Assembly: GCA_905233345.1 (NCBI GenBank)
Contig: CAJODQ010000031.1
Coordinates: forward strand, 1-45,692
DNA from: an uncultured Bacteroidales bacterium
GTDB taxonomy: Bacteria; Bacteroidota; Bacteroidia; Bacteroidales; UBA932
Reading direction: 5' to 3'
DNA length: 45,692 bases
A program made the position numbers and the translations under genes. Position 1 is the first letter of the stretch, and each line of letters begins with the position of its first letter. Below, piece by piece: positions 5,371 through 35,957 of the stretch. The notes under the pieces were generated by a model. That model saw only the letters and a list, made by a program, of their open reading frames with translations, made no database searches and was not told where the DNA came from.

Positions 5371-5406
5371 GCGACACAGACAGTTCATCCATCTTGTCTG
5401 TGTCGC
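5371..5406. repeat. Dispersed intergenic palindrome, copy A
   Basis: A perfect 11-bp inverted repeat: GCGACACAGAC at 5371-5381 and its complement at 5396-5406, with a 14-base loop. It is preceded by an AT-rich stretch containing ATTTCATTTTCC. The same arms, loop length and flank recur at 35661-35696, and a near copy lies at 37935-37974. It follows the adhesin gene but lacks the immediate U-run of an intrinsic terminator, so I call it a REP-like dispersed repeat. Confidence 0.85.
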
Positions 5407-24506: not shown

Positions 24507-24569
24507 TTCCGCACGGGGGTACGCAAAAAGCCTGGCTTGTAAGCCAGGCTCGCGTACCCCCGTGCGGAA
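24507..24569. repeat. Inverted copy of the tRNA-Arg 3' end flanking its terminator
   Basis: 24507-24524 is the exact reverse complement of 24552-24569 (18 of 18). The right arm holds the last 15 bases of tRNA-Arg (T-stem 3' strand, acceptor 3' strand, discriminator) plus 3 trailer bases. The left arm lies beyond the terminator. The 27 bases between the arms are the terminator hairpin. The same layout occurs at tRNA-His (35835-35900). Confidence 0.9.
24525..24550 (-). terminator. Intrinsic terminator of tRNA-Arg
   Basis: AGCCTGGCTT (24529-24538) pairs perfectly with 24541-24550 across a 2-base gap. On the minus strand it is followed by a short T-run (24528-24525). The short U-tract suggests moderate strength. 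Confidence 0.75.
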
Positions 24570-24626
24570 TCGAACCGCAACCGTCAGAACCGGAATCTGA
24601 AATTCTATCCATTAAACTACGGAGGC
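24555..24626 (-). tRNA. tRNA-Arg (anticodon CCG)
   Basis: 72 nt, CCA not encoded. Acceptor GCCTCCG pairs with CGGGGGT (two G-U pairs). The D-arm has AGTTTAATGGATAGAAT, typical of tRNA-Arg. The anticodon arm TCAGA-TTCCGGT-TCTGA gives anticodon CCG, reading CGG. The T-arm TGCGG-TTCGATT-CCGCA is intact. The 3' end is followed by a terminator and an inverted copy of itself. Confidence 0.95.
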
Positions 24627-35623: not shown

Positions 35624-35660
35624 TCGACAGGCTGATTCATAATATTTTCATTTCTTTTAC

Positions 35661-35696
35661 GCGACACAGACAGTTGTGCCGTCTCGTCTGTGTCGC
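35661..35696. repeat. Dispersed intergenic palindrome, copy C
   Basis: Perfect 11-bp inverted repeat GCGACACAGAC (35661-35671) and complement (35686-35696) with a 14-base loop, the same geometry and arms as copy A. It lies 38 bases after the LytTR gene and is preceded by an ATTTCTTTT stretch as in A. The rest of this 405-base gap holds further small hairpins (CGCGCG pair near 35780; CCGGGG/CCCCGG near 35797-35813; GGCGGC/GCCGCC near 35818-35833), the tRNA-His terminator and the tRNA. The segment CGAACGCGCGAGG near 35777-35790 recurs beside copy D. Confidence 0.85.
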
Positions 35697-35834
35697 TCGG
35701 AGGGGGGCGCTGCAGTCTACGGTTAACATCTGTTCCCCCGGTTTTGACGTTGATCCCGCAAAAGCGAAGCGTCGCGCGAACGCGCGAGGTGTCCGGGGAT
35801 GTGCCCCGGTAAACATAGGCGGCTTCAGCCGCCA

Positions 35835-35900
35835 AGTCCCATCATCCACCCACAAAAAAAAGCTCCTCGATCGAGGAGCTTTGGGGTGGATGATGGGACT
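35835..35900. repeat. Inverted copy of the tRNA-His 3' end flanking its terminator
   Basis: 35835-35851 is the exact reverse complement of 35884-35900 (17 of 17). The right arm covers the tRNA-His 3' end (T-stem 3' strand, acceptor, discriminator and one base of CCA). The left arm lies beyond the terminator. Same layout as at tRNA-Arg. Confidence 0.9.
35854..35880 (-). terminator. Intrinsic terminator of tRNA-His
   Basis: A 20-base perfect palindrome (AGCTCCTCGA and its complement, 35861-35880) followed on the minus strand by a run of seven T (35860-35854). Strong. Confidence 0.92.
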
Positions 35901-35957
35901 CGAACCCACGACACTCGGAACCACAATCCGATGCTCTACCAGCTGAACTACATCCAC
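35882..35957 (-). tRNA. tRNA-His (anticodon GTG)
   Basis: Acceptor GTGGATG pairs with CATCCAC, with discriminator C and an encoded CCA (35882-35884). The base before the 5' end is G (35958), the extra G-1 expected for tRNA-His. Anticodon arm TCGGA-TTGTGGT-TCCGA gives anticodon GTG. The T-arm has GGTTCGAGTCC. Followed by a strong terminator and an inverted copy of its own 3' end. Confidence 0.96.

Follow-up and report, generated by a model that had tools for sequence, protein, structure and literature searches.

Recurrent inverted copies of tRNA and tmRNA 3' ends behind terminators in one Bacteroidales genus, most likely a mutational footprint

Why should the 3' end of a tRNA gene reappear, inverted, on the far side of its own terminator? 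The question is raised by the gene of tRNA-Arg (anticodon CCG; 24554-24626, minus strand; ARAGORN, RF00005) within a contig of 45,692 nt (hereafter the window, i.e., the whole stretch of DNA that was analysed). Read along the minus strand, the tRNA (24626-24554) is followed by a hairpin (24549-24530), a T-run on the tRNA strand (24529-24525) and an inverted copy of the tRNA tail (24524-24507). The tRNA-side arm (24552-24569) and the copy (24507-24524) are exact reverse complements over 18 bases, as had been claimed, and the 27-base spacer between them (24525-24551) is the terminator-like segment. Of the arm, 16/18 bases correspond to tRNA positions 59-74; the innermost two (GC) are located just beyond the tRNA end given by ARAGORN. 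Judged by its bases, the stem-loop at 24530-24549 with its T-run has the shape of a normal intrinsic terminator. The first gene of an export operon, which encodes an outer membrane efflux protein, two ABC transporters and a 288-aa protein without Pfam match, begins about 90 bases past the inverted copy.

An identical layout, likewise noted before, is observed for tRNA-His (anticodon GTG; 35882-35957, minus strand; ARAGORN). Here, the tRNA-side arm (35884-35900) is separated from the inverted copy (35835-35851) by a terminator segment (35854-35879; hairpin 35862-35879, T-run on the tRNA strand 35854-35861), all on the minus strand, and the arms agree in 17/17 positions. In both cases, the long T-run is one-sided. 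We searched the window for inverted repeats using 12-base exact seeds (low-complexity seeds skipped) and arms at most 90 bases apart. Among the five repeats found, those of Arg and His are the two longest. With all bases equally frequent, about 1.5e-9 exact 18-base matches would be expected per 100 positions.

We therefore ask how far the arrangement extends within the source genome, a 2.32 Mb draft of 89% completeness with 43 tRNAs (RF00005). When the end of each tRNA plus six bases is compared with the 150 bases downstream, an exact inverted match of 10 bases or more is obtained for 10/43 tRNAs, in some cases with parts of the A- or T-tract included; the largest upstream value is 9. The respective lengths are 18 for Arg-CCG, 17 for Lys-CTT, His and Ser-TGA, 13 for Val-CAC and Ala-CGC, 12 for Leu-TAA, 11 for Glu-CTC and Leu-CAG, and 10 for Gly-GCC. 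A stricter local score is based on the last 25 tRNA bases, includes the tmRNA and excludes 6/44 loci with a second tRNA within 110 bases. A score of at least 10 is reached by 8/38 usable tRNA/tmRNA genes, i.e., 30/38 are below the threshold. With regard to the same 38 loci, it is reached by no direct-orientation copy within 110 bases and nowhere in the upstream control. If the 3' ends of other tRNAs are used instead, 2/295 comparisons attain the score reached by 8/38 own comparisons, which bears out the earlier judgement that chance is very unlikely. This control is uninformative inside sets of a single tRNA type (e.g., 16/144 for the Ala set), because the tRNAs are near-identical there. That is, the phenomenon is wider than first claimed for Arg and His.

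We also compared terminator-like hairpins next to tRNA genes with other such hairpins, covering the window, about 400 kb of the source genome and the tRNA loci. Complementarity that continues beyond the tracts (score of at least 6) is observed for 7/22 tRNA-adjacent hairpins and 0/49 others (Fisher P 1e-4); the 49 probably include hairpins that occur by chance within genes. Measured from the stem base, such that the tracts are counted, the respective values are 14/22 and 5/49. A property of terminators in general is thus not seen in the source genome.

Next, we consider the clade. Three near-complete genomes of other Bacteroidales families (G053, G056, G059) served as controls; from the 129 matches listed for them, we collected 125 loci, 104 of which are usable. 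Among the 104 usable tRNA loci, one reaches the score, at a site unconnected to its terminator, and direct copies reach it at 6/104. Exact tails of at least 6 bases are found behind 7/23 tRNA terminators of the source genome compared to 0/47 in these three genomes, where terminator-like hairpins are not much rarer (47/104 vs. 22/38 in the source genome). Together, the other-tRNA, upstream and other-family controls rule out an origin by chance.

For a broader survey, we built a covariance model of the arrangement tRNA tail - terminator - inverted tail from artificial probes (named R1). An alternative structure model from natural examples was discarded, since four of its 12 rows were, by eye, misaligned by MAFFT. 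R1 scores long palindromes, such that the tail in a matching locus may be only a few bases long. It matches 28/37 genomes of the genus compared to 4/24 of other families. Together with the 8/38 genes of the source genome, this speaks against the possibility, raised with the original prediction, that only two tRNAs show the arrangement and relatives lack it. Within the source genome, the strongest R1 match is the tmRNA 3' end (L179). We inspected 76 R1 loci, three of them from other families; one further listed place, in G042, is outside this set. ARAGORN puts a tRNA or tmRNA at 64/76. Among the 12 loci without such a call, we recognise by eye the end of a tRNA or tmRNA at the edge of a contig in three (L182, L239, L253) and a partial tail in three more (L187, L196, L251); the other six are something else. 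At least one locus at a tRNA/tmRNA end is found in 25/28 matched genomes of the genus (for G003 a partial tail only), and none in the matched genomes G001, G007 and G025. Of the three loci from other families, only L198 is next to a tRNA, and its tail measures, by eye, about 3 bases.

Inverted tails are thus enriched in one Bacteroidales genus, where they recur at tRNA/tmRNA terminators. Generality across Bacteroidales is supported neither by the other-family genomes nor by a class-wide R1 scan, which matched 27/394 other genomes and was insensitive because only 14 candidates per genome were scored. A tRNA is nearby at 4 of the 27 loci read, and only L204 (tRNA-Leu) has, by eye, a real inverted tail. 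Among named Bacteroidales contigs, which may or may not belong to the genus, 3/52 tRNAs reach the score, all of them tRNA-His (L124, L129, L142). A further group of genomes has a nested hairpin repeat of a different kind behind tRNA-Ala(TGC) (L364, L365, L367) and tmRNA (L330); within this repeat, the T-stem and acceptor strand of the neighbouring gene recur in direct orientation with a partial match.

To describe the copies themselves, we started from 287 distinct tRNA/tmRNA loci, 44 of which score at least 9, and kept the 30 that score at least 10, include the acceptor and are found within 75 bases. In 18/30 of these selected loci, the complement of C74 is the first base of the copy, i.e., the palindrome then continues unbroken from the tRNA. 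The end of the copy falls on positions 57-59 in 18 loci and on positions 61-65 in 9, and 3 copies extend beyond 57, while none ends at 52-56. After merging obvious relatives by hand, 13/25 roughly independent cases end at 57-59, i.e., in the T-loop (P 4e-6 against a uniform distribution over 43-65). R1 prefers arms of about 14 bases, which leaves shorter tails underrepresented in this set but does not select against longer ones. Long tails span just the 3' strands of acceptor and T-stem. Among 124 terminators of the genus, a set that includes loci chosen by R1, exact tails of at least 4 bases are found for 68 and of at least 6 bases for 51, compared to 15% and 6% of other-tRNA comparisons.

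Orthologous sets, which comprise the usable loci returned per query (at most 30, such that not every genome is represented), reveal how the copies vary between species. A score of at least 10 is reached by 4/29 loci for Arg(CCG), 2/26 for Pro(CGG), both from the pair G013/G031, 4/26 for tmRNA and 8/27 for Ala(TGC). Exact tails of at least 6 bases behind terminators are observed for 3/15 (Arg), 13/16 (tmRNA), 10/21 (Ala) and 0/13 (Pro); these counts omit loci whose hairpin is not recognised by the finder (L269 among them), and the Pro value reflects that it misses the G013 hairpin. Short tails are commoner than long ones. Copies are common to the genome pairs G033/G036, G013/G031, G005/G014 and G034/G032, whose flanks can be aligned. 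Elsewhere, the copy is short, mismatched (two substitutions in G033/G036) or bulged. Long copies are thus patchy between species and often decayed. At one base, the copy of G023 agrees with the tRNA variant of G008/G024 but differs from the tRNA now beside it, which is what a relic would show.

Tandem arrays of two or three units are located behind Ala-TGC (G036, G014, G017 and G008 among them) and tmRNA (G015, G028 and G036 among them). In several such loci, the distal unit is without A-tract or without part of the terminator's left arm and is therefore taken as the older one. The long tmRNA tail behaves differently from the patchy long tails: 13 of its bases agree across seven genomes, three of which have the tail in a displaced unit, and 14 bases agree across six of the seven; L299 has a change in its tail that corresponds to one in its tmRNA. 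The patchiness of long tails is unlike selection, while the constancy of the tmRNA tail might reflect it.

Taken together, we consider a clade-enriched, recurrent mirroring of tRNA/tmRNA tails that constitutes a mutational footprint the most likely reading. As its best explanation, which we judge to have an even chance of being correct, we propose recurrent hairpin-primed template switching at tRNA/tmRNA terminators that leaves decaying relics. In such an event, the growing strand, with the terminator already copied, would pair its A-tract with the T-tract. The newly synthesised tRNA end, or else its complement, would then serve some polymerase as template for about 5-18 bases, before the strand returns to its own template or joins other sequence. 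As a result, the U-tract would be followed immediately by the tRNA tail in reverse complement. Repeated events in the genus, sometimes several per gene, would produce tandem units, each made up of a terminator remnant, an inverted tail and a repeat, and the copies, probably without function, would decay later. Located immediately downstream of a tRNA gene, a terminator whose A- and T-tracts pair would be a ready primer. tRNA genes are expected to be heavily transcribed, which may promote the switch. The available text of the respective studies reports that template switching can make and maintain hairpins, creating RNA stems in one step (PMC8794818), that in E. coli the polymerase uses the nascent strand as template such that quasipalindromes become more perfect (PMC7202029), and that such events were seen only under high transcription in yeast reversion assays (PMC3820800).

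Template switching, which the original prediction listed among its readings, fits the data best, albeit as a recurrent process rather than as the single event first envisaged. A reverse-complement copy contiguous with a hairpin capable of priming, which characterises quasipalindrome mutation, is what we observe, and the explanation accounts for origin, continuity, patchiness and decay. Alone, it does not account for the restriction to tRNA/tmRNA genes, the restriction to the genus or the stop in the T-loop. That is, a random return point does not predict the endpoint cluster, and an effect on hairpins generally, which template switching predicts without being strictly defined by it, is not seen among the 49 non-tRNA hairpins. 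Furthermore, the tmRNA tail is more constant than relics need be. No ancestor-descendant pair with alignable flanks catches a single switch; for tRNA-Pro, G013 and G031 differ in both arms at the junction, and there is no close outgroup with alignable flanks.

Exonuclease VII limits such mutations. Its loss is rejected as cause, since xseA is present in 56/61 genomes and missing in 3/37 of the genus and 2/24 others. As a separate observation, the large subunit (TIGR00237) gives two-block matches with a gap near profile position 295-305 in many genomes of the genus, unlike in most other families.

The T-loop is a modified and folded part of the RNA, and either this fold or its role as an integrase subsite could set the endpoint. 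A process specific to tRNA/tmRNA genes might write reverse-complement tails behind the gene and thereby renew terminators. Here, a polymerase or reverse transcriptase would copy the terminated pre-tRNA, with the U-tract paired to the A-tract, and halt in the structured or modified T-loop; alternatively, copying would start from an integrase cut at this position. We regard such a process as possible, though on the whole unlikely.

Selection for the copies has to be weighed as well. In a read-through transcript, the inverted tail would pair with the 3' strands of acceptor and T-stem, pull the tRNA apart and thus block its maturation or feed it to an RNase, while terminated transcripts would be spared. 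Long tails cover just these two strands. For 11 loci selected for carrying a copy, the predicted read-through RNAs gain 8.2 to 33.7 kcal/mol in stability over separate folding of the tRNA and the downstream part. In the predicted folds, 8-18 of the last 18 tRNA bases pair downstream in the read-through RNA compared to 0-1 in the terminated RNA. The tmRNA data are in line with this: tails of at least 6 bases behind 13/16 terminators, 13 bases unchanged in seven genomes and the matching change in L299. The predicted gain of 8 to 34 kcal/mol makes the sequestering hairpin that had been suggested earlier energetically strong, but signs of selection on it are few. A copy above threshold is absent from 30/38 tRNA/tmRNA genes of the source genome, orthologues differ in its presence, and mismatches, bulges and displaced units retain the distal part yet break the hairpin. 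Furthermore, the neighbouring downstream genes are co-directional at Arg but convergent at His and at the tRNA-Arg of G032, and we know of no benefit of discarding read-through tRNA. Given these folding models, we consider a trap for read-through transcripts conceivable but doubtful.

The endpoint cluster at 57-59 also brings tyrosine recombinases into play, which cut in the T-loop of tRNA/tmRNA genes; copying or joining from the cut end would leave a fragment from the T-loop to the 3' end. According to the available text of PMC4383910, integrases classically target tRNA and tmRNA genes, with the T-loop among three subsites of crossover. Tandem and displaced units exist, as do direct tail fragments without tRNA bodies that resemble attachment-site remnants (L187, L196, L251). 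Still, integrase-displaced fragments have direct orientation, and inverted ones are rejected and used as a false-positive measure in the same text (PMC4383910). Here, the copies are inverted, and direct ones score at least 10 in 0/38 source loci. An integrase is expected in or beside the element, but no integrase Pfam match is found among the proteins scanned, i.e., 9 open frames from eight copy-bearing loci (3/9 match nothing) and 9 window proteins near tRNAs. Nor does integration account for a palindrome that runs on through the terminator. Traces of integrases are thus quite improbable as the source. We note that L187, L196 (about 1440-1560) and L251 (about 380-460) carry 3' tails of tRNA-Asp and tRNA-Leu(TAA) with terminator and inverted tail but no tRNA body; L196 and L251 have common sequence before the tail, as expected for the far attachment site of an integrated element.

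A repeat consisting of a short GC hairpin, a T-run and TAC(C/T)GGGG...CCCC...CCCC is dispersed in the clade. It is found in the window (35760-35833), in L030, L025, L161 and L167 and in several loci of the genus, both behind tRNAs and immediately after stop codons of protein genes. Another hairpin, GCGACACAGAC...GTCTGTGTCGC, is located at 5371-5406 and 35660-35697 of the window and also in L279 of a relative. If the former repeat inserted behind tRNA genes, it might bring or provoke the inverted tail. In 19/68 loci with tails of at least 4 bases, GTCGG or GTCGC follows the tail within 10 bases; at Ala(TGC), an insert of this type is flanked by a 30-base direct repeat in G014, and in G036 the tail together with the repeat recurs as a 131-base tandem repeat. 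However, the tail matches its own tRNA, and the repeat therefore cannot carry it. Among seven matches of the repeat's core in the source-genome pieces searched, three are away from tRNAs; two of these three directly follow stop codons and have, by eye, no tail. The core is also absent, by eye, from the Arg and tmRNA copies of the source genome. Insertion of this repeat is thus a poor candidate.

It was also proposed that recombination between the repeats inverts the terminator and thereby switches read-through into the export operon. Inverted repeats do flank the terminator, and the one-sided T-run at Arg and His is where an inversion would matter. As a general account, the proposal fails: by eye, A- and T-tracts are of about equal length at Lys, Leu, Val, Gly and tmRNA of the source genome, such that inversion would be nearly silent there, the operon starts about 90 bases past the copy, and the neighbour of His is convergent, which leaves this proposal with very little plausibility. 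Least credible is an artefact of assembly or amplification: the genomes of the genus are indeed drafts of about 10 to 400 contigs, but separate genomes (G033/G036, G005/G014, G034/G032) agree in their copies, and others carry them in decayed form.

If recurrent template switching holds, the clade constitutes a natural record of this process at heavily transcribed genes. It would provide many independent events with a fixed source, the tRNA, such that length, start, end and decay of the copies are measurable, and it would show a one-step origin of intrinsic terminators with near-perfect stems. The endpoint in the T-loop and the restriction to tRNA/tmRNA genes are specific, testable puzzles. If the copies are functional instead, they would represent a quality check on tRNA transcripts, for which we found no description in our literature search.

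Finally, we relate the arrangement to known systems. Our search, chiefly of open-access text, returned no description of inverted tRNA tails behind terminators. Closest is quasipalindrome mutation as covered by the available text of PMC7202029, PMC8794818 and PMC3820800. Common to both are the reverse-complement copy adjacent to a hairpin, more perfect arms, long stems gained in one step and the link to heavy transcription. In contrast, the copies studied here are enriched at the tRNA/tmRNA terminators of one genus and spread over many genes; long ones of 16-18 bases end in the T-loop, tandem units occur, and the process is read from sequence alone. Islander attachment fragments, as far as described in the available text of PMC4383910, are likewise 3' fragments of tRNA/tmRNA genes with a boundary in the T-loop and tandem displacement. 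Here, in contrast, the fragments are inverted, accompanied by no integrase among the scanned frames and fused with the terminator into one palindrome. Bidirectional intrinsic terminators share the symmetrical order of A-tract, GC stem and T-tract, while the complementarity observed here runs on into the gene, which termination does not need.
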